The notes under the pieces: generated by a model | Told to the model about the DNA's origin: nothing | The model's input: the letters and a program-made list of their open reading frames with translations, nothing else | Database searches by the model: none | Program-made: the position numbers and the translations under genes | Origin: a virus | Length of the DNA stretch: 24,560 nt | Virus record (IMG/VR): IMGVR_UViG_3300022539_000714 | Location: 1-24,560 of that record | Direction: 5' to 3' (one strand) | In this document: positions 3,379 to 20,371 of the stretch, piece by piece | Numbering within the stretch: the stretch's first letter is position 1 | Layout: the number at the start of each line of letters is the position of its first letter

Positions 3379-3379
3379 G

Positions 3380-5241: not shown

Positions 5242-5267
5242 AAGTTTTTAGAAAGAACACTATTGTT

Positions 5268-5735
5268 ATGAAAATAGGATATGCTTATGTCGTTGGCGAT
5301 TTATTACATATCGGCCATTTAAAACATCTTCAATCTTGTAAATCCCTTTGCGATAAGTTAATTGTTGGTGTTCTTACTGATGGGGCTGTTATGGAAAAGA
5401 AAGACAAGCCTATTATTTCTTTTGGTGAGCGTTTAGAAACAACTAAGAATCTTAAATCTGTAGATGTAGCAGTAAAACAAGAAACCTATTCTCCACTTCC
5501 AAACGTAAGACAGCTTCGTGTAGATATTCTTTTTGAAAGCACTAGTCATTCTGACGAAGCCATTGGAGATGCCGAAAGAACAATGAAATATATGAATGGC
5601 AGATTAATAGTAATGCCTTATTTTGCAGGACAAAGTTCTACAAGTATTAAGAATAAGATTTTAAAAAAGTGGAAGTATAAGAGTCAGGAACATCCTAAAG
5701 TTATAAATTTAGAATCTAGAAAGGAGGCAAAATGA
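5268..5735 (+). CDS. Cytidylyltransferase-like nucleotidyltransferase (TagD/LicC type)
   Basis: 155 residues with the two signatures of the HxGH nucleotidyltransferase family: DLLHIGHLKHLQ (HIGH at 14-17) and a C-terminal QSSTSIKNKI equivalent to the ISSTxIR nucleotide-binding motif. VGVLTDGAVMEKKDKPIISF and the FGERLE helix also fit the cytidylyltransferase branch. Known members couple CTP to glycerol-3-phosphate, phosphocholine, phosphoethanolamine or aminoethylphosphonate. The LicD-like gene two genes downstream suggests that a CDP-linked alcohol or amine is made here and passed to a glycan. Which alcohol is not visible. The Shine-Dalgarno for the following gene (AAAGGAGG) lies inside its last codons, and its stop overlaps the next ATG. 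Confidence 0.82.
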   Translation: MKIGYAYVVGDLLHIGHLKHLQSCKSLCDKLIVGVLTDGAVMEKKDKPIISFGERLETTKNLKSVDVAVKQETYSPLPNVRQLRVDILFESTSHSDEAIGDAERTMKYMNGRLIVMPYFAGQSSTSIKNKILKKWKYKSQEHPKVINLESRKEAK

Positions 5736-6115
5736 CAAGTCATAAATTGTCGGTGCTTAAAAGTATTATCTGGCGTATCATGGGCGTTATTGTCCTAGCA
5801 TTAGTAACATACTTTTTTACCAGACATTGGATTACTACTACCTACATCACCTTTGTTCATCACACTACTTTTTTGCTAGTTTTTTACTTGCATGAGAGAG
5901 TGTGGATGAAATTGTACGATAAAGATACAAAGTGGAGAAGGGTCGCTAAGGCTTTTACCTACGAGATTATTTTAGGTATGGGAATTGGTGGATTAATTGT
6001 ATATTTCTTCACAGGTGAATGGTCTAAAGTAACTCAGATAACTGGTACATATACAGTTATCAAATTAATAATGTACTACATTAATGAGAAAGTTTGGGCT
6101 AAAATAGAAAAATGA
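5732..6115 (+). CDS. DUF2061-type four-helix membrane protein (two tandem repeats)
   Basis: 127 residues, and the only clearly membrane-embedded protein in the operon. Two copies of a unit of about 50 residues are visible: residues 10-58, ending in FYLHERVW, and 73-122, ending in YYINEKVW. Each unit has two hydrophobic stretches, giving about four membrane helices. The closing HERVW/NEKVW signature and the K-S/A-x2-xR/E opening match my memory of DUF2061. That family has no firm function and is sometimes found next to sulfate- or sugar-activating genes. A strong AAAGGAGG precedes the ATG. Placement between the cytidylyltransferase and the LicD-like gene, with ATGA overlaps on both sides, suggests work in the same step, perhaps membrane recruitment. 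Confidence 0.78.
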   Translation: MTSHKLSVLKSIIWRIMGVIVLALVTYFFTRHWITTTYITFVHHTTFLLVFYLHERVWMKLYDKDTKWRRVAKAFTYEIILGMGIGGLIVYFFTGEWSKVTQITGTYTVIKLIMYYINEKVWAKIEK

Positions 6116-6612
6116 TTCCATCTAAAAACATAAAAGGGGCAGATGAAATTTTGGAAACGTGTCATGATATTTGTAAAGAATTAAACATTCCTATAATGTT
6201 AATTTACGGAACTGCTCTAGGATTTTATCGAGATGGAGGATTTATTAAAGGAGATAGTGATATTGATATTAGGGTTGTGTGTAATAGAGAAAAATGGGAT
6301 GAGTTGGTAAGAGAATTAGATAAAAAGGATATCAAGCAAACTAATAAGCCAAAAGGGTTTGCTTTTAGGAAGCATGATATTCTTACTTGTATTGAGAGGT
6401 CGGAAAAGGTTGGTATAGTAACTTTTGAAAATGGTTGGGAATATATGGTTCAACCTCTTTATCATGAATTTGATATTATAGAATATAAAGGTAGGAAATA
6501 TAATGTTCCACATCCGATTGAAAAATATCTTGAAAATAGATATGGAGAAGGTTGGAAAACACCTAATCCTAAATTTGATAAAACAAGTGCGATACCGCCA
6601 CGTATAAAATAA
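6112..6612 (+). CDS. LicD-like nucleotidyltransferase-fold phosphotransferase
   Basis: 166 residues. IYGTALGFYRDGGFIKGDSD followed by IDI (about 31-53) is the LicD/nucleotidyltransferase-fold core, with Asp at 48, 50 and 52 as likely metal ligands. The C-terminal YLENRYGEGWKTPNPKFD matches the usual LicD ending. LicD proteins move phosphocholine (in relatives, other phospho-alcohols) from a CDP carrier to a sugar. Together with the cytidylyltransferase at 5268-5735 this makes a plausible two-enzyme phospho-decoration module. The protein is shorter than many LicD proteins (about 260 residues), and the middle is compact. It starts in the ATGA overlap with the membrane protein. Assignment to the fold is firm. 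The transferred group is inferred. Confidence 0.8.
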   Translation: MIPSKNIKGADEILETCHDICKELNIPIMLIYGTALGFYRDGGFIKGDSDIDIRVVCNREKWDELVRELDKKDIKQTNKPKGFAFRKHDILTCIERSEKVGIVTFENGWEYMVQPLYHEFDIIEYKGRKYNVPHPIEKYLENRYGEGWKTPNPKFDKTSAIPPRIK

Positions 6613-6614
6613 AA

Positions 6615-7265
6615 ATGGAAAGAGCTTTTAGCCTTGCCTATATAAAGAAAAATAATCTTATAACTAAAGGTAGAGATATTTACGAATTTGGCGTTTATAA
6701 AGGCAAGAGTATGGTTCATATACACAAAGAGTTAGAAAAACAAAATTTAGAGGTTCATAAAGTTTATGGTTTTGATTCCTTTGTTGGTTTACCATCAGAA
6801 GCAAAAAAAGTCCCTATTCGTAAAGGCTGGATTCCTGGACAATTCAGTGCAGTAGAATATTTCGAAAACGATAATATACAAAGTATAATAAAAATACTAA
6901 AGAAAAAGTTGGCTTTTAGTAAGATTGCGATAGAAATAATACCAGGATTTTTTAAGGACGTATTAAATAAGAATCTAGTAGAAAAATATAAATTTAAACC
7001 AGCTTGTTTTGTAGAAATTGATGTTGATTTATACATATCAGCCTATCAAGTCTTAGATTTCTTAGTTAAAAATGGATTAATTGTTAAAGATACAATAATT
7101 GCCTATAATGATTGGGGAGGGGTAGAAGAATTTAAAGGTGGAGAAAGTAAGGCACATAAAGAAATAACAGAAAAATATGGTATTACAGCTAAAGAAATCT
7201 TTAACTATGGTATTTGGCCTAACACAAGCAAAGCATTTATAATTAAAGAAATTAGAAAGGAATAA
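6615..7265 (+). CDS. TylF/macrocin-type SAM-dependent O-methyltransferase
   Basis: 216 residues. IYEFGVYKGKSMVHI (about 22-36) is the SAM-binding loop of the TylF/MycF group, and VYGFDSFVGLPSEA (about 50-63) is its second cofactor-contact motif. FVEIDVDLYISAYQVLDFL near 132-150 and IAYNDWGGVEEFKGGESKA near 163-181 fit the metal-binding and catalytic region of sugar O-methyltransferases. Characterised members methylate deoxysugar hydroxyls in antibiotics, and many relatives lie in polysaccharide gene clusters. Methylation of a sugar in the phage-encoded glycan is the natural reading here. The ATG is two bases after the LicD-like stop, with no strong Shine-Dalgarno, so translation is probably coupled. 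Confidence 0.85.
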   Translation: MERAFSLAYIKKNNLITKGRDIYEFGVYKGKSMVHIHKELEKQNLEVHKVYGFDSFVGLPSEAKKVPIRKGWIPGQFSAVEYFENDNIQSIIKILKKKLAFSKIAIEIIPGFFKDVLNKNLVEKYKFKPACFVEIDVDLYISAYQVLDFLVKNGLIVKDTIIAYNDWGGVEEFKGGESKAHKEITEKYGITAKEIFNYGIWPNTSKAFIIKEIRKE

Positions 7266-7267
7266 AA

Positions 7268-8224
7268 ATGAAACGTGTACTTGTTACAGGAGCAGGTGGA
7301 TTTATAGGTCATCATTTGGCTCGATTCCTAAAGAATAAAGGTTATTGGGTTCGAGGAGTAGATTTAGAGAAACCTAACTTCAGTGGCATGGAGGACTTCA
7401 ACGAGTTTTATATCAGAGATTTAAGAGACCCTAAAAATTGTCTTGATATGACAAAAAGTATTGATTGGACATACAATTTAGCGGCACTCAATGGAAGTAT
7501 TGAATTTACAACTGATAATAAAGCAGAACTCTCTCACAATAACGCCATGATTAATTTGAATATGGCAGAGGCTTGTTGGAAAAATAATGTAAAAAGAGCC
7601 TTCTATGCCAGTAGTGCTTGTGTTTATCCAATGCGTCACCAAGAAACTGATAAGGTTCATGCCTTAAACGAAGATGATGTAGCTCCAGCAGACCCAGACA
7701 CAGAATATGGCTGGGAGAAGCTATTCTCTGAGCATGTCTGGATGTCTTACGAGGCAGATAGGGGACTTGAAGTTAGGATAGCAAGGTTTATAAACATTTA
7801 TGGACCAGAGTGTTTGATAGACACTCTCAAAAGTAAAGCTCCAATGGCTCTTACAAGAAAGGTTATAGAAGCAGGAGAAGGTGGAGATGTTCATATTTGG
7901 GGAGATGGTGGTCAAAAGAGAACCTTTTGTTATATAGATGATTGTGTGAGAGGAATACAGGCATTAATGGAATCTGATGTAAACATTCCGATAAATATTG
8001 GAAGTGATAGGCTTTTCTCTATTAATGAGTTAGTGGATGTTATCACAGAGATTGAAGGTGTAAATGTAAAGAAGGTTCATCAATTAGATAAGGTACAGGG
8101 AGTTAGAACAAGACAAGCTGATTTAACAAGAGCCAAAAAACTTCTTGGTTGGGAGAATAAAATGGACATCAAAGAAGGATTAACTATTATTAACAAATTC
8201 ACACATGAACAGTTAAAGAAATAG
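7268..8224 (+). CDS. GDP-mannose 3,5-epimerase-like extended SDR epimerase
   Basis: 318 residues. The NAD loop VTGAGGFIG (Gly 8, 11, 14) and catalytic YGWEK (Tyr147, Lys151) mark an extended short-chain dehydrogenase. Beyond that it follows plant GDP-mannose 3,5-epimerase closely. ASSACVYP carries Cys118, and KSKAPMALTRK carries Lys190. From memory the Arabidopsis enzyme uses Cys145, Tyr174 and Lys217. The spacings Cys to Tyr (29) and Cys to Lys (72) are identical here. IPINIGSDRLFSINELVDVI and GVRTRQADL also match the plant pattern. The likely reaction is GDP-D-mannose to GDP-L-galactose (or GDP-L-gulose), supplying a rare L-sugar to the glycosyltransferases. An AAAGGA Shine-Dalgarno precedes the ATG. 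Neighbours are 2 bp away on both sides. The fold is certain and the exact substrate is likely. Confidence 0.88.
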   Translation: MKRVLVTGAGGFIGHHLARFLKNKGYWVRGVDLEKPNFSGMEDFNEFYIRDLRDPKNCLDMTKSIDWTYNLAALNGSIEFTTDNKAELSHNNAMINLNMAEACWKNNVKRAFYASSACVYPMRHQETDKVHALNEDDVAPADPDTEYGWEKLFSEHVWMSYEADRGLEVRIARFINIYGPECLIDTLKSKAPMALTRKVIEAGEGGDVHIWGDGGQKRTFCYIDDCVRGIQALMESDVNIPINIGSDRLFSINELVDVITEIEGVNVKKVHQLDKVQGVRTRQADLTRAKKLLGWENKMDIKEGLTIINKFTHEQLKK

Positions 8225-8226
8225 TT

Positions 8227-9090
8227 ATGAAGAACAAAGTACAATTAATGATTTTTTCTTATAATCGTCCATTACAATTAGAACTTTTAGTAAGCAGTAT
8301 TAGAAAGAACATTACCGATTTTAATAAAATCATTGTTACCTTTAATTATTCCGATGATAGATTTCTCAAGGGATATGAGAATTTCAAGGAAAAAGGATTA
8401 GTTGATGAATGGCATTGTGATAAAGACATTGCCTATACCCCTGAATTTAAGAATTACCTCGTAGAATTAATGGGTGATGAGTATGATTATACTTGTTTGT
8501 TTTCTGACGATGCTATTGTTTATGGAAAAGTTTCTATGGACAATGTTATTGCCCAGATGACAGATGATGTTATTTCTTTTTCTTTGAGGTCAGGTCTCAA
8601 TGCCAAATATAGCTTCTATGGAGGGAAAACAATAATTGAAAATCCATGGGGAGAGTATGAAGATTTGGGGGACTTTATTAAATGGAATTGGACAGAGTAC
8701 AACCCAAAGCGTTGCAATGGTTATCCAATAGGGTTTGGTGATGGTTGTGTCTTCAAGACCAAAATAATCAAAGACTTGTTAGGGAGAGTTGAAGGACAAT
8801 CGCCTAATGAATTAGAAAGACATTTGAATCAAATTGAAAACAGAGAAGTAATAACTCAAAAAAAGTTAGTTGCATACAAACACAGTAAGTTAGTAAGTAA
8901 TCCAGTTAACAATGTACAAACGTTTTCTCCCTTATTTAGTGGTGAAAGATTTAGTTACCCTGTTGAAAAATTGAATGACAAATATTTAGAAGGATATGTA
9001 GTTGATTTTGATAAGATAGATTTTAGTGATATTAAAGCAACGCATCAGGAGTTAGCGCTCCCATTAAAATTATCAAACAATGGAGGATAA
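8227..9090 (+). CDS. Putative GT-A fold glycosyltransferase (divergent GT2-like)
   Basis: 287 residues. VQLMIFSYNRPLQLELLVSS is the standard opening of GT2-type enzymes, and CLFSDDAIVYG (Asp94-Asp95) lies where the metal-binding acidic pair is expected. After residue 100 the sequence is divergent, with NGYPIGFGDGCVFKTKII near 165-182 as a probable acceptor-site loop. The last 60 residues have no recognisable motif. No membrane segment is seen. It begins two bases after the epimerase stop, and the next gene is 5 bp downstream with a GGAGG site inside this gene's end. Glycosyltransferase fold is likely, and donor and acceptor are unknown. Confidence 0.7.
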   Translation: MKNKVQLMIFSYNRPLQLELLVSSIRKNITDFNKIIVTFNYSDDRFLKGYENFKEKGLVDEWHCDKDIAYTPEFKNYLVELMGDEYDYTCLFSDDAIVYGKVSMDNVIAQMTDDVISFSLRSGLNAKYSFYGGKTIIENPWGEYEDLGDFIKWNWTEYNPKRCNGYPIGFGDGCVFKTKIIKDLLGRVEGQSPNELERHLNQIENREVITQKKLVAYKHSKLVSNPVNNVQTFSPLFSGERFSYPVEKLNDKYLEGYVVDFDKIDFSDIKATHQELALPLKLSNNGG

Positions 9091-9095
9091 AAAAT

Positions 9096-9686
9096 ATGCT
9101 TAATTTGAAAATAAGAGCATTTGATTTCTTGCTCAAAGATAAAAAGAATTTGGTTGGTGCAGAAATAGGAGTATTTAAGGGAGGGCATGCTTTTGAAATG
9201 TTAAAATTTCTTGATATAAAAATCTTTTATTTAGTCGAACCCTATCGCACCTATATTGGTCATGGGAATAAAACACATCATCCAGAATCAGCAGAAAAAG
9301 TTGCAAGAGCATTGCTACAACGATATCAACATAAAGTAATATGGATTAAGTCTTCATCAGTTGAAGCAGTCGCTGGTTTTCAAGATAAAAGTTTAGATTT
9401 TGTTTATATTGACGGGAATCATGATTATAAATTTGCGTTACAAGATATTGAATTGTGGACACTGAAAGTAAAGCAGGGTGGAATTATAGGTGGGCATGAT
9501 TATGGAGAAAACTTTCCTGGAGTAGAAAAAGCTATAGAAGAATATTCTAGTAAAAATAAGATTGAGTATAAAACTAATTTCTTTGGAAATGAAAAAGTTA
9601 ATACTGACTGGGCATTTAAAAAAGGTGGTAAGTTAGAAGTCTGGAAAGTTCCTAGACCTGAAGCTTCTAGTTTTAAATCTCTATGA
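9096..9686 (+). CDS. Class I SAM-dependent methyltransferase (Methyltransf_24 type)
   Basis: 196 residues. VGAEIGVFKGGHAFEML (about 20-36) is the SAM loop, and FYLVEPYRTY (about 44-53) supplies the acidic residue that usually holds the ribose. LDFVYIDGNHDYKFALQDIE (about 100-119) is diagnostic of the CmcI/Methyltransf_24 branch, where Asp and His often bind a metal ion. GGIIGGHDYGENFPGV near 128-143 completes the family pattern. Relatives in polysaccharide clusters are thought to be sugar O-methyltransferases. GGAGGATAA precedes the start, and the stop overlaps the next ATG. It belongs to a different subfamily from the other methyltransferases here, so it probably acts on another position. 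Confidence 0.85.
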   Translation: MLNLKIRAFDFLLKDKKNLVGAEIGVFKGGHAFEMLKFLDIKIFYLVEPYRTYIGHGNKTHHPESAEKVARALLQRYQHKVIWIKSSSVEAVAGFQDKSLDFVYIDGNHDYKFALQDIELWTLKVKQGGIIGGHDYGENFPGVEKAIEEYSSKNKIEYKTNFFGNEKVNTDWAFKKGGKLEVWKVPRPEASSFKSL

Positions 9687-10543
9687 ACAATCTTTGTATC
9701 GCAATCAGGAGTTTTAAACGACCCGAATATTTAAAGCAGTGTTTAGAATCTTTAGAGAGCAATTCAGACTTAAATGTTGATTTTTTCTTCTTCCAAGATG
9801 GAGCAGTTAATCCGTTCTCAGGTAAAAGATATGCTACTGATGAAGAAGTAAAGGCATCTTTAAAAGTTTTTCAAGATTCTAAATTACCTAATAAAACAAT
9901 CTTTGTTAGCCAACACAATTTAGGCCCGATTATTAGAAATAGACTTCAACTAGAATATGTATTTCCCTTATATGAATATGGAGTATTTCTTGATAATGAC
10001 CTTGTCTTCAATAAATATTACATTAAAACATTGAAGGTTTTATTTAAACAATTCAAAAATAGCGATGCTGGTTCGATTCAAACATCCTTTAGATATCGTA
10101 GGAATAATATTCAATCTTTAGAAGATGCTATAAAGCTTCAGAATAAAGTGGCTTATGGATTCTCTCATAGATGGGAAATTGGATTGTGGAGAGAGAGTTG
10201 GGAGAAGATTAAACCTATTATTGCACCATATTTTGAGATGACTGCAAGAGTCGATTTTAAAGAGTTTTTATATAATCATTCTGTCTATAAAGACATTCGA
10301 GAAAAAAGTCGAGGCATTTATGGATGTCAACATGGAACAGGAGACACGCCAACAGAAGATTTTGTCCTAGAAAAATCAATAGAAAAAGCAGGATATAAAG
10401 GGTTACATACATTAACATTACGACATAAAACAATTGGTGAAAAAGGAATGTTTAGTTTTAGAGCAACCCGATATAGAGATGGGGGATATATAAAAATCCC
10501 ATTACATGATATCGGGGATATTGATAAATATGAAATACAATGA
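9683..10543 (+). CDS. GT-A fold glycosyltransferase, GT2-like (paralogue of the gene at 2512)
   Basis: 286 residues. LCIAIRSFKRPEYLKQCLES is the GT2 opening, and GVFLDNDLVFNKYYIK carries a DND metal site at 104-106. The layout matches the protein at 2512-3378 (FFFFQDG near 34-40, DSKLPNK near 65-71, an aromatic/Trp-rich middle), which suggests duplication and divergence inside the operon. HRWEIGLWRESWEKI near 163-177 is equivalent to the GHFWAEACWSKKW region of that protein. It is soluble, with no signal peptide. It starts in an ATGA overlap with the methyltransferase upstream and ends in an ATGA overlap with the next methyltransferase. Confidence 0.8.
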   Translation: MNNLCIAIRSFKRPEYLKQCLESLESNSDLNVDFFFFQDGAVNPFSGKRYATDEEVKASLKVFQDSKLPNKTIFVSQHNLGPIIRNRLQLEYVFPLYEYGVFLDNDLVFNKYYIKTLKVLFKQFKNSDAGSIQTSFRYRRNNIQSLEDAIKLQNKVAYGFSHRWEIGLWRESWEKIKPIIAPYFEMTARVDFKEFLYNHSVYKDIREKSRGIYGCQHGTGDTPTEDFVLEKSIEKAGYKGLHTLTLRHKTIGEKGMFSFRATRYRDGGYIKIPLHDIGDIDKYEIQ

Positions 10544-11142
10544 CAAATACTAATTGGCAAAATAACCTTACCAGTGAATTAAGTTTTTGGACTAATTATT
10601 TTAAAACCAAATCTTATAAATATGTTAAAGAAAGCCATCTTCTTTTCTTTAAAAAGTGGTTTAAGGTACCGATTGAAATATTTTCGGAAGCAATTATTTT
10701 AGATGTTGGCTCTGGTCCCTCAAGTCATCTTTATGACATTGAAGCTCGAATAAAAGTTGCTATTGACCCTTTAATGGATAAGTACGAGAAAATAACAAAG
10801 AACTATGAATTTCCAAATGATGATGTTATCAAACTTAAAGGCAGGGGTGAAGAATTACCTTTTACTAGTGAGTCATTCGACTTTGTGTTTACGTTTAATG
10901 GTATTGACCATTGGGCAGATTGGCAAAAAGGGATTTTAGAAATAAAAAGAGTTTTAAAGAAAAATGGCAAGTTATTATTATATGTTGTATTTGATAGACC
11001 TAATCCAAATCCGCATCATCCGTTTTGTATTGATGAAGATTCAATAAAGTGGATTGAAGAACAAGGATTCAAGATTATTCAAAGTGAAATATTACTTATT
11101 GAAAAGAGAAGAAAATTTTATGGGATGTTTAAAAAGTTATGA
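10540..11142 (+). CDS. Class I SAM-dependent methyltransferase (Methyltransf_11 type)
   Basis: 200 residues. IILDVGSGPSSHLYDIE (about 52-68) is the SAM-binding loop, and KVAIDPLMDKYEKI provides the acidic residue after strand 2. GRGEELPFTSESFDFVFTFN near 103-122 is motif II. ILEIKRVLKKNGKLLLYVVF is the typical post-motif region of this group. Residues 1-45 form an aromatic, Lys-rich helical extension. The substrate cannot be told from the fold. The operon context suggests a sugar or a glycan-bound group. Translation is coupled to both neighbours by ATGA overlaps. Confidence 0.83.
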   Translation: MTNTNWQNNLTSELSFWTNYFKTKSYKYVKESHLLFFKKWFKVPIEIFSEAIILDVGSGPSSHLYDIEARIKVAIDPLMDKYEKITKNYEFPNDDVIKLKGRGEELPFTSESFDFVFTFNGIDHWADWQKGILEIKRVLKKNGKLLLYVVFDRPNPNPHHPFCIDEDSIKWIEEQGFKIIQSEILLIEKRRKFYGMFKKL

Positions 11143-11843
11143 AACTAATAACGGATTTACATTTAAAATATAAAGACAAACCAATTTGGATAGTAGGTTC
11201 TGACCCTACTCTTGAAGATTATCCTGATAATTTTTTAGATAATAGATTGGCAATTACTCTCCATTTAGCTTACATAAAGTTCCCAAATGTTACTTATAGA
11301 TATTTCAATGAGAGAGATAGATTTGTTTTCTTAAAAGAGAAATATCCAGAGATTTTAGATAAAGTAAACATTTTTGGTTACCCTTTCTATAATCGTCCAC
11401 AAGCGGTATCTGATGAAGCAATAGGGAAAGCTAAAGAGAAAGCATATTATCTTAATTTAAAGCCCTATCCGCCTAGTGGCAATCCTAGTGCTATCTTTAG
11501 TGATTCGGGTCCTAATGCCATGCGTAGAATGGTTGGAGAAGCTGTTAGTGCCACTTCTAGTACCTTTGGTGGACATGGGACGTGTTTGCATCCCTGTATG
11601 TATGTAGCGCTTATGATGGGGTGTAATCCTGTCAATATTATTGCTTGTAATTTTAAGAATATTGATGGAAAAGAACATTTTGGAGAGACTAATAAGATAG
11701 ACCATGATATGCGACCTCAAACTCCATCATTTACAGGTTACAGAGGCACAAGAATGACTCGCGGATTAGATGCTATTATTGCCGGATGTAATGACCATAA
11801 GATTAAAGTTAATCGGATAGAAAAATATGATAATATAGAGTAA
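11139..11843 (+). CDS. Putative Rossmann-like DUF115/sialyltransferase-like protein
   Basis: 234 residues. After a short N-terminal helix, KPIWIVGSDPTLEDYPDNFL (about 14-33) resembles the phosphate-binding GxGPSL loop of DUF115 (MptE-like) and GT42-type proteins. A second conserved-looking block, CLHPCMYVALMMGCNPVNII (about 149-168), is where those families have a helix followed by a strand. The middle carries a Ser/Gly-rich stretch with a Cys and several His. In other surface-glycan clusters DUF115-type proteins are suspected transferases that use nucleotide-linked acidic sugars. I see only the loop pattern here, so this is tentative. It starts in an ATGA overlap, and 28 bp separate it from the next gene. 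Confidence 0.55.
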   Translation: MKLITDLHLKYKDKPIWIVGSDPTLEDYPDNFLDNRLAITLHLAYIKFPNVTYRYFNERDRFVFLKEKYPEILDKVNIFGYPFYNRPQAVSDEAIGKAKEKAYYLNLKPYPPSGNPSAIFSDSGPNAMRRMVGEAVSATSSTFGGHGTCLHPCMYVALMMGCNPVNIIACNFKNIDGKEHFGETNKIDHDMRPQTPSFTGYRGTRMTRGLDAIIAGCNDHKIKVNRIEKYDNIE

Positions 11844-11871
11844 GTAATATTGAAAGGTATAGGATTGAAGT

Positions 11872-12654
11872 ATGAAAGTAAAAGTAGGAGTCTTTATTTT
11901 AAACTACAAGCGACCAAATACAGTTACTAGAGTTATTGACTCTGCTCTCCATCAAACAATCAAGCCTGAAGCTGTTTATATTTGGAATAACAATCCCGAA
12001 ACCACAATTAACTATCAAGGGTGTATTAATGTTAATTCTCAAGAAAACTTCCTTTGTATTATTCGTCATGTCGTTGCCTTTACTAGAGATATAGATTATT
12101 GGGTTTTTATTGATGATGATGTGGCAATGAAGCCAAAGGCAATAGAAAACTTTTTAGAATATAGTAAAAAGTATCCTGAATCAATTTTAGGCTATTATGG
12201 AAGAAACATTACTAGTGGGCTTTATTCTCTTGACCGTTCTAATTGGTATACAAATAAAGAGAAAGAAGTAGACATGGTTATGGGAATGATTCACTTTTGT
12301 AAAAGAAGTAAGTTGATTAATTCTTTCATTCTTAAAAAAGAGATTCCTGATTTACCATTAACAGAAGATGACATACTTTTAAGTCTTGGAAACAAGTTTA
12401 TTGATAAGCAAAAGAATTATGTAATTCCTTATAGTAATGAGAGTGGACCAATGCCTCTTGATAGTGGTTATGGTGGACTCAGTATTAAAGGAGGTCATTT
12501 ACAAAGAAGGATAGATGCTGTTAGGCGTATATTAGAGTGGGCAGGAAAAATGCCAAAACCAAGTAAAAGAGAACATGGTAAACCAGTTGAACCGATTGGA
12601 GAACTCAAAGAAGTTAAGTTTAGTGCGAAAGCAAAAATATGCCAAGCGAAGTGA
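11872..12654 (+). CDS. GT-A fold glycosyltransferase with GT2/GT64-like features
   Basis: 260 residues. KVGVFILNYKRPNTVTRVID is the GT2-type opening. DYWVFIDDDVAMKPKAIENF gives an Asp triplet at 81-83. The order IWNNNPE, FIDDDV, SILGYYGRNI, DMVMGMIHFC and a late EDD (LPLTEDDILLSLG, about 162-174) also resembles exostosin-like GT64 domains. In those, a C-terminal ED pair is catalytic. Residues 215-260 form a basic, Pro/Lys-rich tail not expected in either family. A GAAAGG site lies upstream of the ATG. GT-A fold is well supported. GT64-like versus GT2 is open. Confidence 0.75.
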   Translation: MKVKVGVFILNYKRPNTVTRVIDSALHQTIKPEAVYIWNNNPETTINYQGCINVNSQENFLCIIRHVVAFTRDIDYWVFIDDDVAMKPKAIENFLEYSKKYPESILGYYGRNITSGLYSLDRSNWYTNKEKEVDMVMGMIHFCKRSKLINSFILKKEIPDLPLTEDDILLSLGNKFIDKQKNYVIPYSNESGPMPLDSGYGGLSIKGGHLQRRIDAVRRILEWAGKMPKPSKREHGKPVEPIGELKEVKFSAKAKICQAK

Positions 12655-12706
12655 TAGAATGTAAATTAAATAAGATTTTAGTAACTGCCTTAGGAAGGAA
12701 ACCATT

Positions 12707-13474
12707 ATGAAAATAGGAATCGTTGGCTACGGAGTTGTTGGAAAAGCTCAAATTGAGTTTTTTGGTGAACATTTTTGTCTTATTCACGACCCTAGCTCAG
12801 GATACAAAAATAGAGCTTTAATTAATAAAGAGTGTGATTTAGCCTTTGTATGTGTTCCAACTCCCTCTAAAAAAGATGATACTTGCGATACTTCGATTGT
12901 TGAAGAATCTGTTAAGTGGTTAGAGACTCCTATTATTGTAATTCGTTCTGCTGTTGTTCCCGGCACAACAGACTATTTAATAGATAAGTACAAAAAGAAT
13001 ATTGTTTACCAACCAGAGTATTTAGGAGAAACCCCTCTACACCCCTATTTAGATTTAAGAAAGCGTGAATTTGTCATCTTGGGAGGCGAAAGAAAATTAA
13101 CCAAAGTACTGATTATGTATTACCAGAAATTTATGCACCCTGATACTCACTTTTACCAAACAGACACAATAACTGCCGAGTTGGTAAAGTATATGGAAAA
13201 TGCTTGGTTAGGAACTAAAGTAACCTTCTGTAATGAGTTCTATGAGATTGCCAAGACTCTTGGTGTTGATTATAATGAATTAAGAGAGCTATGGCTTGCT
13301 GATAAAAGGATTAATCGCAGCCATACTTTTGTCTATCCAGATAAAAGAGGTTTCAGTGGTAAATGTCTTCCAAAAGACATTAAAGCTATAGTTAAAAAGT
13401 TGGAGGAAAAGGGCTATGAAGCAAAGTTCATCAAAAAAGTCCTCGAAGAAAACGAGAGAATCAAAAAGCTCTAA
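12707..13474 (+). CDS. Short UDP-glucose/GDP-mannose 6-dehydrogenase-like enzyme
   Basis: 255 residues. The NAD loop GIVGYGVVG (Gly 7, 9, 12), SAVVPGTTDYL, YQPEYLGE, TAELVKYMENAWLGTKVTF (Lys161, Asn165) and GFSGKCLPKDI (Cys220, Lys223, Asp224) are the conserved elements of nucleotide-sugar 6-dehydrogenases, including the thiohemiacetal cysteine. Such enzymes oxidise a hexose C6 to a uronic acid, for example UDP-glucose to UDP-glucuronate. Usual length is about 390-450. This one stops soon after the catalytic cysteine and lacks the C-terminal nucleotide-binding domain, so it is either a naturally minimal form or has altered substrate binding. AGGAAGG lies before the ATG. Its last 59 bases overlap the next gene in another frame. 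Confidence 0.85.
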   Translation: MKIGIVGYGVVGKAQIEFFGEHFCLIHDPSSGYKNRALINKECDLAFVCVPTPSKKDDTCDTSIVEESVKWLETPIIVIRSAVVPGTTDYLIDKYKKNIVYQPEYLGETPLHPYLDLRKREFVILGGERKLTKVLIMYYQKFMHPDTHFYQTDTITAELVKYMENAWLGTKVTFCNEFYEIAKTLGVDYNELRELWLADKRINRSHTFVYPDKRGFSGKCLPKDIKAIVKKLEEKGYEAKFIKKVLEENERIKKL

Positions 13475-13988
13475 AGTTTGTTATTTAGATTTTGACGATT
13501 TCGGAGAGAAAAATAGTCGTTTAGATTGGTTTTGGAGACTTCATAAAGAATTCCCTCATTTCAAAGTGAATCTATTTGCTATTCCTTGGGACAATCAAAG
13601 GAAAGAGTGGATGAAATATATCCAAAAACTTGATTGGATTCAGTTATGTGTTCATGGGTTTTATCACGAAAATAATGAAGAAGTGGAAAAAGGAATGTTA
13701 GGTGCTTATTGCCCAGACAGAGGGTTTGCTAAAGTTTATCGGGCTCCTTTCTGGCAACTTTCAGACAAAATGTATAACCTTCTTAAAAAGTTAGACTATA
13801 AAATAATGCTTCATCCTGATGACCCAAGAGAGGGAATTAAATACAATTGGAATATTAAAGACTCTCCGCCTTACTTAGATATTCTTTATGGGCATGGCCA
13901 TATTCAAGACACACAAGGAAATGGGTTAGTAGAAGCATTTGAGAACATTCTTAAACTTCCTATTAATACTAAGTTTAAATTTCTATGA
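13416..13988 (+). CDS. NodB-like (CE4) polysaccharide deacetylase-like protein
   Basis: 190 residues. CYLDFDDFG (Asp27-Asp28) corresponds to the TFDDG metal and base motif, CVHGFYH (His80, His84) to the HxxxH zinc pair, and VYRAPFWQLS to the RxPxG motif. LYGHGHIQ (His160, His162) may supply the late catalytic His. These residues fit removal of an acetyl group from an N-acetylated or O-acetylated sugar. The ATG at 13416 lies inside the dehydrogenase gene with GGAGG about 10 bp upstream. No better start exists downstream, so the first 20 Ser/Lys-rich residues come from the 59-bp overlap. The stop overlaps the next ATG. Family assignment is good. Whether it deacetylates the phage glycan or a host polymer is unknown. 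Confidence 0.72.
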   Translation: MKQSSSKKSSKKTRESKSSKVCYLDFDDFGEKNSRLDWFWRLHKEFPHFKVNLFAIPWDNQRKEWMKYIQKLDWIQLCVHGFYHENNEEVEKGMLGAYCPDRGFAKVYRAPFWQLSDKMYNLLKKLDYKIMLHPDDPREGIKYNWNIKDSPPYLDILYGHGHIQDTQGNGLVEAFENILKLPINTKFKFL

Positions 13989-14545
13989 AAATACCAAAAG
14001 GCTATCAAAAAATACAAACAGAAAAGTCTTCTACAAGTCGTGGAACTAAATGGGGACGACGAGCCATACAATCTGTCGACAAATATCTAAAATATTTTAA
14101 GGGCAAGATATTAGAAATAGGCTGTAATGATGGCTTTGCTATGGACTATATTAAAGAAAAAGGATTTGAAGTAGAGGGAATAGATATTGCTAAACATAAA
14201 TTAAAAATTGCCAAAGAGCATGGACTTAAAGTTCAATTTGCTTATCAAGAGAAAATGCCTTTTGGTGATAAATCATTCGATACAATCTTTTCTTCTCATA
14301 CACTAGAACATAGTTATAATGCAGAACAAGCTGTTAAAGAATATCAAAGAGTGGCAAAAAGAGCGATTGTTATTATTCCCATTGAATCAAATAGAATAGC
14401 TTTTCCTGAAGTACATGTAAGCGCTTTTCGTTCAAAAGAAGATTTGATTAACTTATTTAAAGATAAAGGGAAAATAATCTTAGAAGAAGCACGTAACAAT
14501 ATAGAGCCTGAATATATAGTTATTGTTGATTTTTATGAAACCTGA
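13985..14545 (+). CDS. Class I SAM-dependent methyltransferase (Methyltransf_11 type)
   Basis: 186 residues. GKILEIGCNDGFAMDYIKEK (about 40-59) is the SAM loop. VEGIDIAKHKLKIAKEHGLK places an Asp after strand 2. QEKMPFGDKSFDTIFSSHTL followed by EH (about 87-108) is the standard motif II region of Methyltransf_11. RAIVIIPIESNRIAFPEVHV near 125-145 is the post-core segment. The N-terminal 38 residues are basic and probably helical. It is distinct in sequence from the methyltransferase at 10540 apart from the shared fold. It overlaps the deacetylase stop (ATGA), and its own last 11 bases overlap the next gene. Confidence 0.83.
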   Translation: MKIPKGYQKIQTEKSSTSRGTKWGRRAIQSVDKYLKYFKGKILEIGCNDGFAMDYIKEKGFEVEGIDIAKHKLKIAKEHGLKVQFAYQEKMPFGDKSFDTIFSSHTLEHSYNAEQAVKEYQRVAKRAIVIIPIESNRIAFPEVHVSAFRSKEDLINLFKDKGKIILEEARNNIEPEYIVIVDFYET

Positions 14546-15353
14546 AATCTCAGTAATCATCACTACTTATAATAGACCAGTAATGCTTCAAAGGGCATTA
14601 GATAGTGTTTTGGCACAAACATTTAAAAACTTTGAAGTAATAATTGTTGATGACCATTCTGACAAACCGCCTGATATTAAATTTCCTGCTAAAGAAAAGC
14701 GAGTAGTTGCCATGCGGTTACCCTACAACACAGGTTATCAAGTAAGACCTAAGAACATTGGAATTATGATTGCAAGAGGGAAATATATTGCCTATCTAGA
14801 CGATGACAATGTTTATCTTCCCAATCACTTAGAAGTGCTTTACGAAGCAATTAAAAAACATCAAGCCGATGTTGTTTATGGCGATAGAGTCTATAAAAGC
14901 ACCGATAAAAATGAAAAGAGATTTATGGGCAAGATGAGCTATCCTTATGATTTAAACCAATTAGAACATGGTAACTATATTGATACTTCAGATATTATGC
15001 ACACTGTTCAAGCTATTAATGATATTGGGTTTTGGGACATTTTTTGGGAAAGAAAAGGTGATTGGCTCTTAATGACTAAATTTGGCAAAAGAGGGAAAAA
15101 GGTAGTTCATGTGCCTGAAGTAATTACTGAATATTGGTGGCATGGCGATAATATTGGACAATTTAATCCAATGGGAGGAGAGTTTCCTCAATCTGCAGAA
15201 TTTAGAAAAAATGTAAGAGGATTGGCTCAAGACCTTGCTAAAGCAAAAAATGTCCAGTTCAAAGCAAGGAGTGCAAAAGATGCTTCGCCTCACATAGATA
15301 AAGATGCACGTAATCCAATTGGCTTTAAAGCCCAAGATGGTAAGTGGAAATAA
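14535..15353 (+). CDS. Canonical GT2-family glycosyltransferase
   Basis: 272 residues and the most typical GT2 enzyme of the operon. EISVIITTYNRPVMLQRALD, SVLAQTFKNFEVIIVDDHS, GIMIARGKYIAYLDDDN (Asp89-91, the DXD) and FWDIFWERKGDWLLMTKFGK occur in order at family spacing. I use ATG 14535. A TTG 12 bp upstream is in frame but adds nothing to the domain. The last 40 residues are a basic, Ala/Lys/Asp-rich tail outside the GT2 core. Donor could be any nucleotide hexose. It overlaps the methyltransferase upstream by 11 bp and is one base from the cysteine desulfurase gene. Confidence 0.9.
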   Translation: MKPEISVIITTYNRPVMLQRALDSVLAQTFKNFEVIIVDDHSDKPPDIKFPAKEKRVVAMRLPYNTGYQVRPKNIGIMIARGKYIAYLDDDNVYLPNHLEVLYEAIKKHQADVVYGDRVYKSTDKNEKRFMGKMSYPYDLNQLEHGNYIDTSDIMHTVQAINDIGFWDIFWERKGDWLLMTKFGKRGKKVVHVPEVITEYWWHGDNIGQFNPMGGEFPQSAEFRKNVRGLAQDLAKAKNVQFKARSAKDASPHIDKDARNPIGFKAQDGKWK

Positions 15354-15354
15354 A

Positions 15355-16497
15355 ATGAAAAAAGTTTATTTAGACTATGCTTCTACTACTCCGATTGATT
15401 CGCAGGCAGTTCGAGCAATGCAACCTTATTTTGTAAAAAAATTTGGCAATTCAGTTTCTTTGTCTAGTTTTGGCCAAGAAGCGAAAGAGGCTCTAGAAAA
15501 AAGCAGATTAACTATTGCTGAAACACTAGGAGCCGAACCAGAAGAAATAATTTTTACTAGTTCTGCTACTGAGAGTAATAATTTTGCCTTAAAAGGAATT
15601 GGCTTTGCCAATAATTGGGGTGGGCATATTATTGTTTCATCTATTGAGCATGATTGTATTTTGAATAGTGCAAAATGGTTAGGAGAACAAGGCTTTGATG
15701 TTGAACAGTTGCCAGTAAATAGATATGGTTTAGTTGACCCAAGAGATGTCGAAAAAGCAATAAGAAAAGATACATTTTTGGTTTCAGTAATGCACGCTAA
15801 TAATGAAATCGGAACCATTGAACCAATTGAAGAAATTGGAGAAATTTGCCGTCAAAAAAGAGTGTATTTTCATACTGATGCTGCTCAAAGTTTTGGGAAA
15901 ATCCCCATTGATGTAAATAAAATGAACATTGATTTATTGACTGCTTCTTCACATAAAATGTATGGACCAAAAGGAATAGCTTTCTTATTTGTTAGAAAGG
16001 ACACCAAAATTGAACCTCTCTTACATGGAGGAGGGCATGAGTTTGGACAGAGGTCATCAACAATTAATATACCTGCAATTGTTGGTTTTGCTAAAGCGGT
16101 TGAAATTTGCCAAAAAGAAATGGGAAAAGAAAGTCAAAGATTAATAGGACTTCGAGATAAATTAATAGAAGGAATTTTAAACAAAGTCCCCGACTCTCAT
16201 CTTAATGGTCATCCTAAGTTACGATTGCCAAATAATGTTAATTTTTGGTTTAGATTTGTTGAGGGAGAGTCTGTTGTTTTACAATTAGATTCTTATGGTA
16301 TAGCTACCTCTACAGCCTCAGCTTGTTCTTCTCCGAAATTAAAACCATCCCATGTCCTTTCAGCTTGTGGATTAAAAGCTCGACAGGCTTATGGTTCTTT
16401 AAGATTGAGTTTAGGAAGATTAACAAAAGAAAAAGATATTGACTATGTTTTGGAAGTTTTACCTGAGATTGTTAAAAAGTTAAGAAAAATAAGATGA
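15355..16497 (+). CDS. Cysteine desulfurase (NifS/IscS family, PLP-dependent)
   Basis: 380 residues from ATG 15355. An upstream ATG at 15304 lies inside the GT2 gene and adds 17 unrelated residues. All family landmarks are present: YLDYASTTP at the N-terminus, TSSATESNN, SSIEHD (His99), NNEIGT (Asn150), TDAAQSFG (Asp175, Gln178), the PLP lysine in ASSHKMYGPKG (Lys201) and the sulfur-carrying cysteine in SACSSPKLKPSHVL (Cys324). Length and spacing match IscS-like proteins (about 400). The enzyme takes sulfur from L-cysteine as a persulfide on Cys324. No iron-sulfur scaffold, tRNA-thiolation or phosphorothioation partner is visible in the window, so its use in a sugar operon is unexplained. It overlaps the next gene by ATGA. 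Confidence 0.9.
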   Translation: MKKVYLDYASTTPIDSQAVRAMQPYFVKKFGNSVSLSSFGQEAKEALEKSRLTIAETLGAEPEEIIFTSSATESNNFALKGIGFANNWGGHIIVSSIEHDCILNSAKWLGEQGFDVEQLPVNRYGLVDPRDVEKAIRKDTFLVSVMHANNEIGTIEPIEEIGEICRQKRVYFHTDAAQSFGKIPIDVNKMNIDLLTASSHKMYGPKGIAFLFVRKDTKIEPLLHGGGHEFGQRSSTINIPAIVGFAKAVEICQKEMGKESQRLIGLRDKLIEGILNKVPDSHLNGHPKLRLPNNVNFWFRFVEGESVVLQLDSYGIATSTASACSSPKLKPSHVLSACGLKARQAYGSLRLSLGRLTKEKDIDYVLEVLPEIVKKLRKIR

Positions 16498-17171
16498 AAA
16501 TAGCTTTATTCACATTAACTAAAGATAGACTCGAATATACCAAAAGAACACTTAAGAGTCTTAATGAGAAAACTGACCTTACTTTTGACCATTTTGTTAT
16601 TGACCAGGCGAGCAAAGACAAAACAGTTGAATGGCTAAAACAATTCACTTATAACCAAGGGAAAGTCTATGTTTATCCTCTTGCTATGAATATTGGTATT
16701 AATCGTGGTGTTAATTTTGCGATTGATAAAATAGGTGATGACTACGATATTATTATTAAAATAGACAACGATTTAGAGATTGAGACTGATGGGTGGTTAA
16801 AGAAGTGTCTAAAAGTATTAAGACCAAAATTGTTGCTTTCACCTTATGTTAAAGGATTAATTCATAATCGTGGAGGAGTCAATAGGGTCGCTTTTGGAAA
16901 TGGCTCAATAGGATACACACCTTTCATTGGCGGAATTTGTATGATAGGGTTTAAGAAAGCATGGAAAGAAGACTCTGGTGGCTGGGAGTTTCCAGTACCA
17001 AAGCACTCTGGAGGAGATAAAGCCTTCTGTATGAAGCTAGCTCTGGCGGGTTATGGATTTGGTTATGTAGAAGATGTTATAATCAAACACATAGAGTCTA
17101 CTGAAGGACAGCATGAACGCTATCCTGACTACTTTGCCGAACGTAAAGTAGAGCGGACTAAGATTTTTTAG
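16494..17171 (+). CDS. GT2-family glycosyltransferase, compact form
   Basis: 225 residues. IALFTLTKDRLEYTKRTLKS is the GT2 opening, VIDQASKDKTVEWLKQ follows the nucleotide loop, IIIKIDNDLEIETDGWL carries the DND metal site at 91-93, and GGDKAFCMKLALAGYGFGYV near 178-197 is the acceptor-side block. Length is at the small end for GT2. No membrane helix is seen. It is the last gene of the tightly coupled sugar operon: the next gene has its own GGAGA site 10 bp downstream. Confidence 0.87.
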   Translation: MKIALFTLTKDRLEYTKRTLKSLNEKTDLTFDHFVIDQASKDKTVEWLKQFTYNQGKVYVYPLAMNIGINRGVNFAIDKIGDDYDIIIKIDNDLEIETDGWLKKCLKVLRPKLLLSPYVKGLIHNRGGVNRVAFGNGSIGYTPFIGGICMIGFKKAWKEDSGGWEFPVPKHSGGDKAFCMKLALAGYGFGYVEDVIIKHIESTEGQHERYPDYFAERKVERTKIF

Positions 17172-17854: not shown

Positions 17855-19306
17855 ATGACAGATACTAAAATACAAAGATTTAAAATCACTATCCCCATTG
17901 TCAAAACGAGTGTAAAGATTGTTAAAGATGAAGATGGTAATGAAGTAGAAGAAAGATATATTGAAGGCGTCGCTTCAGGAACAGAACTAGATAAACACGG
18001 CGACAGAATGGCTCCATCTGCTATTGAATCCATGGCAAAATCTCTTAAGCAACACGTTATTAACCTCAACAATGAACACGATACTTCTTGGTCAGGAGAA
18101 CTTGGAGATATTACCAAATTAACAATTAGTGACAATGATGATTTAGAAATCAAGTCAAAATTAAACGAGATGAGTTCTGCTAAAGATTTATGGTATGCCA
18201 TAACAGAGCAGAATAAAAAACTTGGACTTTCAATCGGTGGATATGTCAAAGATTATGAAATGGTTAAGGAGGGTGAAGGGGACGACGCAAAATGGGTTCG
18301 TCTTTATAAAAAGATTGATTTAGACCATATTGCTGTCACTTCACGACCTGCTTATCCTAAATCTTGGGTTTCAAATATTGCAAAATCAGTAAAAGATAAT
18401 GACGAAGTATTATTGAGAAAAGTAAAAAAAGAAGAAAAAAGCAAAAGAAGTCAAAAAGAAAAAAGAATGAGAGAATTAGCACGAGCAATAGCTCGCAGTA
18501 TTCAAGAGTTAGAGTCAGATTTGCTGTTAGAACTTTGCTACAAAGGACTTAAATTTTGTAACGAAGAGCAAATATTATTACTAGAAAGGAGTCTTCCTAC
18601 TATGAAAAAGAAAAATGTCTCACTGGAAGCTAAGAAAGCCAAGAAAAAGGCTGATGCCGCCGCCAAGTCCGAAGGCGAGCAGGATGAAACCTTAGCAACC
18701 CCAGATAATGAGTCGTCTAAAGAGAAATCTAAGGAGGATAAGGAAACCAAAGACAAGTCTGGTGATGAGTGTGGGGGAGGGAAATCTGCTAAAAAGAACC
18801 CTGCCAAAGATTCAAAACCAAAAGACGAACCTGAGGAATCTGAATCTGACAAAGAGGAACCAGAAGGCGAATCGGACAATGAGGAAGGCGAGGATAAAGG
18901 CGAAAAAGGGGATAAATCTCCTGAGTCTGATGAAGAAACCAAGTCTGAAAAAGACAAGAAAAAATCTTCAAAAGAGGAATCAGAGAAAAAATCTACCAAA
19001 GGTGACAAAGGAGAACTTGTAAAGGCCGTTAAGGGACTTTCCAAAGGTCTTGAAGATGTTCTTAAAAGCAACGAAGCGCTCGCAGGGCGAGTAAAGGAGC
19101 TTGAAAGTCAACCAGCGGGTCGCAAAACAGTCGAGATTCATAAGGCTCTCGGTGACGAAGATGGAGAAGTAAAAAGCTCCGAGGAACTCACTAAAGCGAG
19201 AGATAAAAAAATCGAGGCAGTAAGAAAAGAGTTTGCAAATGACCCCAACCTTTTCGCTAGGGTTCAAAGAATCCGCGCCGAGTACGCTCAAAAAGCTCAA
19301 GAATAA
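17855..19306 (+). CDS. Head maturation protease (XkdF/HK97 prohead protease type) fused to scaffold
   Basis: 483 residues. Residues about 1-180 form the serine protease: YIEGVASGTELDKHGDRMAP, the catalytic His in NLNNEHDTSW (His75), the nucleophile in KLGLSIGGYV (Ser126), and KIDLDHIAVTSRPAYP (about 153-168). This matches Peptidase_S78-type prohead proteases, which cut scaffold and capsid N-termini during head maturation. Residues 185-250 are helical and basic. Residues 250-395 are low-complexity Lys/Glu/Ser/Asp, and 395-483 are a predicted helical scaffold end with FANDPNLFARVQRIRAEYAQ. AGGAG lies 3 bases before the ATG. The second half is richer in G+C than the first and probably has its own start at 18602. 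Protease-scaffold fusions upstream of the capsid gene are known in phages. Confidence 0.88.
   Translation: MTDTKIQRFKITIPIVKTSVKIVKDEDGNEVEERYIEGVASGTELDKHGDRMAPSAIESMAKSLKQHVINLNNEHDTSWSGELGDITKLTISDNDDLEIKSKLNEMSSAKDLWYAITEQNKKLGLSIGGYVKDYEMVKEGEGDDAKWVRLYKKIDLDHIAVTSRPAYPKSWVSNIAKSVKDNDEVLLRKVKKEEKSKRSQKEKRMRELARAIARSIQELESDLLLELCYKGLKFCNEEQILLLERSLPTMKKKNVSLEAKKAKKKADAAAKSEGEQDETLATPDNESSKEKSKEDKETKDKSGDECGGGKSAKKNPAKDSKPKDEPEESESDKEEPEGESDNEEGEDKGEKGDKSPESDEETKSEKDKKKSSKEESEKKSTKGDKGELVKAVKGLSKGLEDVLKSNEALAGRVKELESQPAGRKTVEIHKALGDEDGEVKSSEELTKARDKKIEAVRKEFANDPNLFARVQRIRAEYAQKAQE
18585..18591 (+). promoter_or_regulatory. Internal Shine-Dalgarno site for a nested scaffold
   Basis: AAAGGAG lies 10 bases before an in-frame ATG at 18602, inside the protease-scaffold gene. 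This is as strong as the sites used by the neighbouring genes and sits exactly where the sequence changes from helical linker to low-complexity scaffold. It decides the start of the nested product listed next. Confidence 0.6.
18602..19306 (+). CDS. Probable nested, separately translated scaffold protein
   Basis: The ATG at 18602 is codon 250 of the protease gene and in the same frame, so translation from it would give a 234-residue protein starting KKKNVSLEAKKAKKKADAA and sharing the protease stop. The content is scaffold-like: a Lys/Ala helix, a long acidic/basic low-complexity stretch, then a helical C-terminus (about 150-234) of the type that contacts capsid subunits. Base composition rises in G+C right after this ATG, as in the capsid gene downstream, fitting higher expression. 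The arrangement parallels lambda C/Nu3, where scaffold is made from a start inside the protease gene. It is not proven and could be only part of the fusion. Confidence 0.58.
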   Translation: MKKKNVSLEAKKAKKKADAAAKSEGEQDETLATPDNESSKEKSKEDKETKDKSGDECGGGKSAKKNPAKDSKPKDEPEESESDKEEPEGESDNEEGEDKGEKGDKSPESDEETKSEKDKKKSSKEESEKKSTKGDKGELVKAVKGLSKGLEDVLKSNEALAGRVKELESQPAGRKTVEIHKALGDEDGEVKSSEELTKARDKKIEAVRKEFANDPNLFARVQRIRAEYAQKAQE

Positions 19307-19354: not shown

Positions 19355-20371
19355 ATGAAAAATCAAGCACAAGACTTAAGAAAAGCCTTACTTGAAGCTG
19401 CTGCACTCCTAGAAAAGTCAGCAAAGGTATCTCGAGGCGTGGATGAAGCTGCATCTATGCTCATGAAGGATGCCATTTACACTACTACTTCTGGTGCATT
19501 CGCACAGAGGGAGCATCTTGACACGCAAATCGGAGATATTACTCGACGTAATACTCCTTTTTTGGACAGAGTCGCAAAGGTGCAGGCAAATGGTAAAACC
19601 CATGAGTGGGATATGGTTACAGCACTTGGAAGCAACGACACAGCAGTTGCCGAGTGTGGTACTCCAGCCGAGAATGACGCAACAATCACTCGCTATTCAG
19701 CACAAATCAAGACCTACGCCACAAGCGTAAAAGTCTGTGATTTAGCTCAATGGGCGGCAAGTGATTACTTCGACCTGATGAATCTTCATCTGGAGAAGGG
19801 TATGCGTAAAATTCTTCACGACGTTGAGAAAAAGATTTATTACGGTAACAACGCTGGGTTAAGCCCCAACGATTTTACCGGACTATATAAATTAATTGCT
19901 GATTATGCCGGAGCCAGTAACACCGTTAATGCGGCTGGGAATCCAATTTCTCAGACTTACATTGACAACGCCATTCAGGCGGTTGTAGATAACGGTGGTA
20001 TGGTCACCCATATGTTTATGGGGGCAAAAGACTTGAGAGATTTCGCGGCTCTCTGGGCTAATAAAGTCGTTTACAACGACCCAGGTGCTGGGATGACTTT
20101 CGGATACAATGTAGCTCGCTACATGTCTTGGGCGGGACCAATCGAGATTGTTCTCGACCCGTTCTTGGTAGCAGCTAACTCTCCGAACTCACCCAATACC
20201 GATACCTTCCTCGTAGATATGAGTGAGGTTGCTTTAGCACAATCAGAGCCGATGTACAGGCTTCCGCCTTACCGTGCTCTAGACCTGGCAGAAACACAAA
20301 CTGTGGTCTGGAACATCGTGTTGGAAGTACGAGTACCTCAATGGCAAGCAGTAGTCAAGAATTTGGGCTAA
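19355..20371 (+). CDS. Major capsid protein, HK97 fold (possibly SU10-like)
   Basis: 338 residues. Position after the protease-scaffold, length and composition all fit an HK97-fold shell protein. Residues 1-38 are helical (LRKALLEAAALLEKSAKVSR) and may be a scaffold-binding or cleaved arm. Then come IYTTTSGAFAQREHLDTQIG, the long hairpin-like region with THEWDMVTALGSNDTAVAEC (about 86-105), a helical middle with DLMNLHLEKGMRKILHDVEKK, and an Asp/Pro/Ala-rich C-terminal domain with VVWNIVLEVRVPQWQAVV. G+C content is clearly higher than in the sugar operon, as expected of a highly expressed virion gene. AAAGGAG precedes the ATG. A terminator follows 38 bp after the stop. SU10-type similarity is from memory only. 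Confidence 0.85.
   Translation: MKNQAQDLRKALLEAAALLEKSAKVSRGVDEAASMLMKDAIYTTTSGAFAQREHLDTQIGDITRRNTPFLDRVAKVQANGKTHEWDMVTALGSNDTAVAECGTPAENDATITRYSAQIKTYATSVKVCDLAQWAASDYFDLMNLHLEKGMRKILHDVEKKIYYGNNAGLSPNDFTGLYKLIADYAGASNTVNAAGNPISQTYIDNAIQAVVDNGGMVTHMFMGAKDLRDFAALWANKVVYNDPGAGMTFGYNVARYMSWAGPIEIVLDPFLVAANSPNSPNTDTFLVDMSEVALAQSEPMYRLPPYRALDLAETQTVVWNIVLEVRVPQWQAVVKNLG

Follow-up and report, generated by a model that had tools for sequence, protein, structure and literature searches.

Cysteine desulfurases encoded by phages, including phages of Patescibacteriota, are previously known, and nifS and Fe-S genes from phages and viromes already appear in the portions of three published reports considered here (PMC12911398, PMC7785012, PMC8940887). 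The relevant portion of the first one, devoted to groundwater Patescibacteriota phages, mentions two cysteine desulfurases among the metabolic genes, together with 46 genes for nucleotide sugars, these phages also carrying many O-antigen nucleotide-sugar genes (PMC12911398), and that of the second one reports nifS in Cariaco viromes (PMC7785012). These desulfurases are, like the one described here, located on viral contigs as auxiliary metabolic genes, and the gene list of PMC12911398, as far as given in that portion, fits the content of the contig analyzed in this work. The same portions of PMC12911398 and PMC7785012 provide annotations, whereas the present analysis adds the insertion slot, the ancestry of the gene and the loss of the tail; in those of all three reports, we found neither a slot comparison, nor the ancestry, nor the tail pattern of lone viral copies.

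Concerning the cellular enzymes, the C-terminal helix (Arg379-Lys391) of Escherichia coli IscS contacts IscU, an IscS variant deprived of residues 376-404 no longer binds IscU, and TusA and ThiI bind to other faces of the protein than IscU (PMC2854127). The solved structures nearest to the protein studied here are those of Archaeoglobus fulgidus IscS2 (PDB 4r5f and 4eb5), likewise a group-I cysteine desulfurase; the alignment with solved relatives spans residues 4-378 of the phage protein. Unlike the phage enzyme, IscS2 is a cellular archaeal protein with about seven extra C-terminal residues past the aligned part.

The window, i.e. the whole stretch of 24,560 bases analyzed here, is a linear viral record corresponding to a phage fragment. 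Its main features are listed in Table 1.

Table 1. Features of the phage window around the cysteine desulfurase gene
Feature	Position	Strand	Remarks
Glycan block (glycosyltransferases, methyltransferases, LicD-like, cytidylyltransferase, epimerase, UDP-glucose-dehydrogenase-like)	197..15353	+	Partly common to relatives devoid of desulfurase
g19, GT2-family glycosyltransferase	14538..15353	+	Left flank of the slot; 63-77% identity in relatives
Variable cargo slot	15351..16493	.	Desulfurase in the window; sisters have HNH endonucleases or small unknown ORFs, or an empty slot
Cysteine desulfurase (IscS/NifS type)	15355..16497	+	380 aa; predicted catalytic Lys201 and Cys324; devoid of C-terminal IscU-docking tail
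ATGA overlap (desulfurase TGA / g21 ATG)	16494..16497	+	3′ junction of the insert; C-terminal tail cut here
g21, GT2-family glycosyltransferase	16494..17171	+	Right flank of the slot; 55-76% identity in relatives
Prohead protease (Peptidase_S78)	17855..19306	+	Identifies the window as tailed phage
SU10-type major capsid protein	19355..20371	+	Query that found 32 sister contigs

Results

The gene product is almost certainly a cysteine desulfurase. The preliminary description had reported a complete gene with intact Lys201 and Cys324, which our analysis confirmed. The ORF is uninterrupted from its ATG to its TGA, its translation matches Aminotran_5 of Pfam (272 bits), and both residues are found at these positions, in the motifs SSHK(201) and STASAC(324)SS. 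The score against the IscS subfamily model NF002806 (321.8 bits for a cut-off of 304) passes the sole curated cut-off exceeded among the models listed. The top NCBIfam model is NifS TIGR03402 but its equivalog cut-off is not reached (502.1 bits versus 530.75), so that the protein is a close relative of NifS and not a certified equivalog. The scores against the DndA model TIGR03235 (388.8 bits, cut-off 480) and the group II SufS/CsdA model TIGR01979 (152.2 bits, cut-off 475.1) are also below threshold. Among the 53 columns conserved in at least 95% of 56 relatives, 50 are retained, and the closest cellular relatives share two (A209 and A321) of the three substitutions. Group-I enzymes (IscS/NifS, fold-type I PLP) are defined by the PLP lysine, a catalytic histidine, the Asp and Gln of the PLP pocket, the cysteine of the SxxSACSS loop and the substrate arginine; the corresponding set (H99, D175, Q178, K201, C324 and R350) is invariant in the alignment. 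Judging from these residues, the phage desulfurase is likely catalytically active.

The preliminary description had placed the gene in a sugar operon and considered that this position favours glycan or nucleotide tailoring. Using the capsid protein as query, we retrieved 32 sister contigs, most of them encoding capsids with 84-92% identity, and mapped every gene of the window onto them. The order g19-slot-g21-g22-protease-capsid is kept on the 18 contigs harboring both flanks, which represent about 15 genotypes (L036, L037 and L038 are alike, as are L024 and L025). None of these 18 contigs carries a desulfurase between the two glycosyltransferase genes, and no class-V aminotransferase was detected in 19 whole sister records, two of which reach about 100 kb. 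In three contigs, the slot is empty and the flanking genes abut, with only 2 bp (L022), 6 bp (L014) or 13 bp (L015) at this place. Therefore, the desulfurase gene is an optional cargo in a hypervariable slot and does not correspond to a step of a glycan pathway. The outcome named beforehand as speaking against a tailoring role, namely close relatives that share the glycan block but are devoid of the gene, was thus observed; "in the sugar operon" holds for the position of the gene only, which is otherwise an insertion specific to this contig within a variable slot.

In two other contigs, the slot encodes proteins with Pfam HNH/NUMOD3 matches (L013, 6646-7275; L018, 1741-2406), and in a third one (L008, 6653-7177) a protein that appears to be of HNH type by eye and has no Pfam match. 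These genes suggest that the slot is a hotspot where insertion is driven by endonucleases of homing type.

As an auxiliary metabolic gene should, the desulfurase gene shows cellular ancestry (see below), has flanks conserved across sister phages and lies upstream of the protease and capsid genes. Its GC3 (19%) fits that of its phage neighbours and is lower than in any of the nine cellular relatives considered (21-44%), which makes a fresh assembly chimera doubtful. Given this value, the phage-like codon usage and a 3′ overlap of 4 bases as in sister contigs, we consider such a chimera unlikely; a second, independent copy of the window contig was looked for and none was found. The last 35 residues or so of g19 are private to this contig. 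Elsewhere in the window, the capsid gene and the gene at 23431-23937 have a G+C content of 46-49% compared to about 34% for the remainder of the window, the capsid gene showing the most deviant codon use among genes larger than 600 bases, and the region 197-2515 encodes a single chain of 772 aa matching a GT4-type glycosyltransferase, a GT2-type glycosyltransferase and a methyltransferase.

The preliminary description had also noticed that no sulfur acceptor gene is visible, and this was corroborated. Pfam matches of the window include no sulfur-acceptor, sulfur-carrier or sulfotransferase family, and HMM searches were negative for NifU_N/IscU and PAPS-reductase/DndC (PAPS_reduct) in the window and 15 other viral records, for TusA in the window and any relative searched, and for MnmA in the window. 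This absence concerns the 24.6-kb fragment, and an acceptor gene could be located elsewhere in the phage genome. None of the recipients that had been proposed (a thio-sugar, a modified base or phosphorothioate DNA) gained support from these searches and from the sister contigs. In particular, the MnmA-model matches in two sisters proved to be of QueC type (G010 by Pfam, G004 by eye) and do not correspond to a tRNA-thiolase partner, and the one in G020 is a different, putative PP-loop protein.

Two sisters harbor genes of another kind. The 102-kb record G010 (locus L162) encodes QueC and GTP cyclohydrolase I, both confirmed by Pfam, of a 7-deazaguanine-type cassette, beside a UDP-glucose-dehydrogenase-like gene and a partial QueE-like frame read from the sequence that has no Pfam match. 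The record G004 (locus L163) carries a QueC-like gene identified by eye. Such cassettes suggest that the DNA of this phage group may contain a modified guanine.

The species-genome scan gave as best matches a Parcubacteria-group MAG (L043, 69% identity), an Aenigmatarchaeota MAG (L044, 66%) and an unclassified bacterium (L045, 65%); among 379 genomes from the phylum of L043, the closest relative reaches 71% (L127). In the phylogenetic trees, the phage protein falls inside a clade of 10 rows (support 100/98) that otherwise includes Patescibacteria, L044 and L045. Its terminal branch (0.27-0.30) is similar to those of cellular genes and therefore does not indicate decay. The gene adjoins iscU in all 15 best Patescibacteria loci examined, as well as in L043, L044 and L045. 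The IscU gene of L043 (3645-5297) encodes 550 aa, and its NifU_N match is split into two parts separated by about 1.1 kb, probably because of an intein. The Parcubacteria-group IscS proteins, such as those of L127 and L043, share their clade and core length with the phage copy, and L127 has the same active-site loop (STASACSSPKL), but they possess a C-terminal SPxx tail and an adjoining iscU, both lacking in the phage copy. Since the Patescibacteria-type relatives examined all have an adjoining iscU, the phage gene most likely descends from the iscS of an operon for Fe-S assembly, and the capture of the desulfurase as cargo from a Patescibacteria-type isc operon appears well supported. This ancestry is the sole indication that the phage host may be a Patescibacterium. 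Searches of the 379 genomes yielded no close capsid relative or provirus but only weak capsid matches, and the search for a window glycosyltransferase in Patescibacteria yielded only distant ones.

The phage desulfurase terminates by KKLRKIR, its stop codon overlapping the start of g21. In cellular relatives associated with iscU, the sequence almost always terminates by LRx(I/M/L)SP followed by a few to about 20 residues, and an SPxx tail is found in all IscU-linked relatives of its own clade. Residue 378 of the phage protein aligns with residue 401 of chain 3lvj, which would correspond approximately to residue 382 of IscS, provided that the additional residues at the N-terminus of this chain are a tag. 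The phage protein would therefore stop inside the IscU-contacting C-terminal helix of the E. coli enzyme. In the Patescibacteria enzymes, the tail amounts to only about five residues, and its importance there is presumed by comparison. Among cellular loci, 63 show both tail and iscU, 12 the tail only, three iscU only and 10 neither (Fisher p = 2.6e-5, a value that is indicative only since the sequences are related and non-independent). The 66 viral loci include 24 with tail and IscU, four with the tail only, none with IscU but no tail, and 38 with neither, about 29 of which remain after considering that three end at a contig edge and that six contigs were counted twice. Many phage-collection matches from unannotated fecal or assembly records were left out because of possible contamination. 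The tail could also have been lost at the junction of the two genes as a side effect of the insertion.

Most lone desulfurases of other viral contigs are also devoid of the C-terminal tail. In eight contigs (L200, L201, L202, L206, L207, L209, L215 and L218), and alike in L217, the gene is flanked by those of a DnaB-like helicase and of a conserved protein of 340 aa. This L200-L218 group shows a fixed order with a PD-(D/E)XK nuclease gene downstream of the desulfurase, and lacks both iscU and the IscU-docking tail. Other viral contigs of up to 340 kb (L198/L004, L204 and L210-L213/L005) carry a tail-less lone desulfurase with an FtsK-like gene downstream, and in several of L198, L204 and L210-L213 the desulfurase gene directly follows repetitive tail-like genes; their common synteny implies an old acquisition. 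No sugar theme was seen among the recurrent neighbours of lone viral desulfurases. Although the desulfurases of L198/L004, L213/L005 and L200-L218 resemble the phage copy by the lack of iscU in their locus and of the tail, they are less than 45% identical to it, belong to other clades and keep a constant gene order with neighbours of replication or tail-like type; they are acquisitions separate from that of the window gene. An iscR-iscS-iscU-iscA-hscB-hscA-like operon at the end of an IMG/VR contig (L002, 179-5304), with a recombinase-like gene nearby, was rejected as a phage metabolic gene, such a whole isc-like operon being host DNA or the edge of a provirus.

Discussion

We propose, with a probability of about 0.6, that this gene is an auxiliary metabolic gene captured from an isc operon of Patescibacteria type, which occupies the slot as cargo, probably works and provides sulfur to acceptors of the host. 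A phage would have taken up the iscS gene of an operon in which iscS precedes iscU, and this gene would have been placed in the hypervariable slot between the two conserved glycosyltransferase genes. In the encoded enzyme, Lys201 would bind PLP, and Cys324 would accept the sulfur of L-cysteine as a persulfide with release of alanine. During infection, the sulfur would then be delivered to cellular acceptors of the host, proposed here because no acceptor gene was seen on the phage. The gene, its key residues, its ancestry, the slot, its absence from the sisters and the missing tail are observations, and the activity of the enzyme, the timing of its action, the identity of the host and the use of host acceptors are what we infer. 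The host IscU, which assembles Fe-S clusters, would be the ancestral partner of the enzyme. However, since the phage enzyme has lost the counterpart of the IscU-docking tail, acceptors involved in tRNA thiolation, or others using a different site of the enzyme, are no less plausible than the host IscU.

More generally, phages may have repeatedly acquired desulfurases and shed their docking tail, giving a class of lone enzymes uncoupled from IscU and serving another acceptor, of which the window gene would be a separate, Patescibacteria-type instance. This scenario is tentative, and we consider it as possible rather than probable.

One use of the ancestral partnership would be that the enzyme feeds the host IscU and thereby keeps Fe-S enzymes of the phage or the host loaded during infection. 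Its descent from an IscU-linked IscS agrees with this. QueE is normally a radical-SAM Fe-S enzyme, and the sister G010 carries a QueE-like frame with QueC and GTP cyclohydrolase I genes, G004 having a QueC-type gene. However, the sisters carrying these queuosine-type genes are devoid of desulfurase, and the missing tail, comparable to the truncation that prevents E. coli IscS from binding IscU (PMC2854127), argues against a simple supply of the host IscU. We consider such a role in Fe-S supply as rather unlikely.

A captured host gene could also reside in the hotspot without any advantage for the phage. The presence of one copy in one contig could indeed reflect a transient passenger without benefit, and the slot turns over fast and takes up HNH genes. 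Nevertheless, the catalytic set is intact, the codon usage is phage-like and the terminal branch is not accelerated, so we regard a neutral passenger as rather improbable.

Supply of sulfur for a sulfur-containing sugar or glycan of the surrounding block is suggested by the location of the gene, co-directional between two glycosyltransferase genes and overlapping the next one by 4 bases. This role was rejected, the gene being missing from all 18 sister contigs that bear the flanks; furthermore, the relatives of the desulfurase are located in isc operons, Pfam matches of the window include no sulfur-carrier or sulfotransferase family, and the alternative contents of the slot are HNH endonucleases and small unknown ORFs without any recognisable tailoring enzyme. 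We thus hold it to be very improbable. A DndA-type enzyme for phosphorothioate DNA, or a donor for base thiolation, is hardly conceivable and was also rejected: DndA is a related family, but the score is below its cut-off, PAPS_reduct/DndC is absent from the window and the 15 other records, and the phylogeny groups the desulfurase with Isc operons.

The captured iscS-type cargo gene therefore remains our preferred reading, and the tempting story of a viral sulfur-sugar is replaced by that of an optional cargo gene originating from a cellular iron-sulfur operon. Furthermore, the presence or loss of the SPxx tail provides a simple sequence mark that tracks the presence or absence of iscU, and that could be used to sort phage desulfurases into likely users of IscU and possible users of something else. 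Should the host be a Patescibacterium, this gene would be relevant to the influence of phages on the supply of cofactors in cells having a reduced genome.
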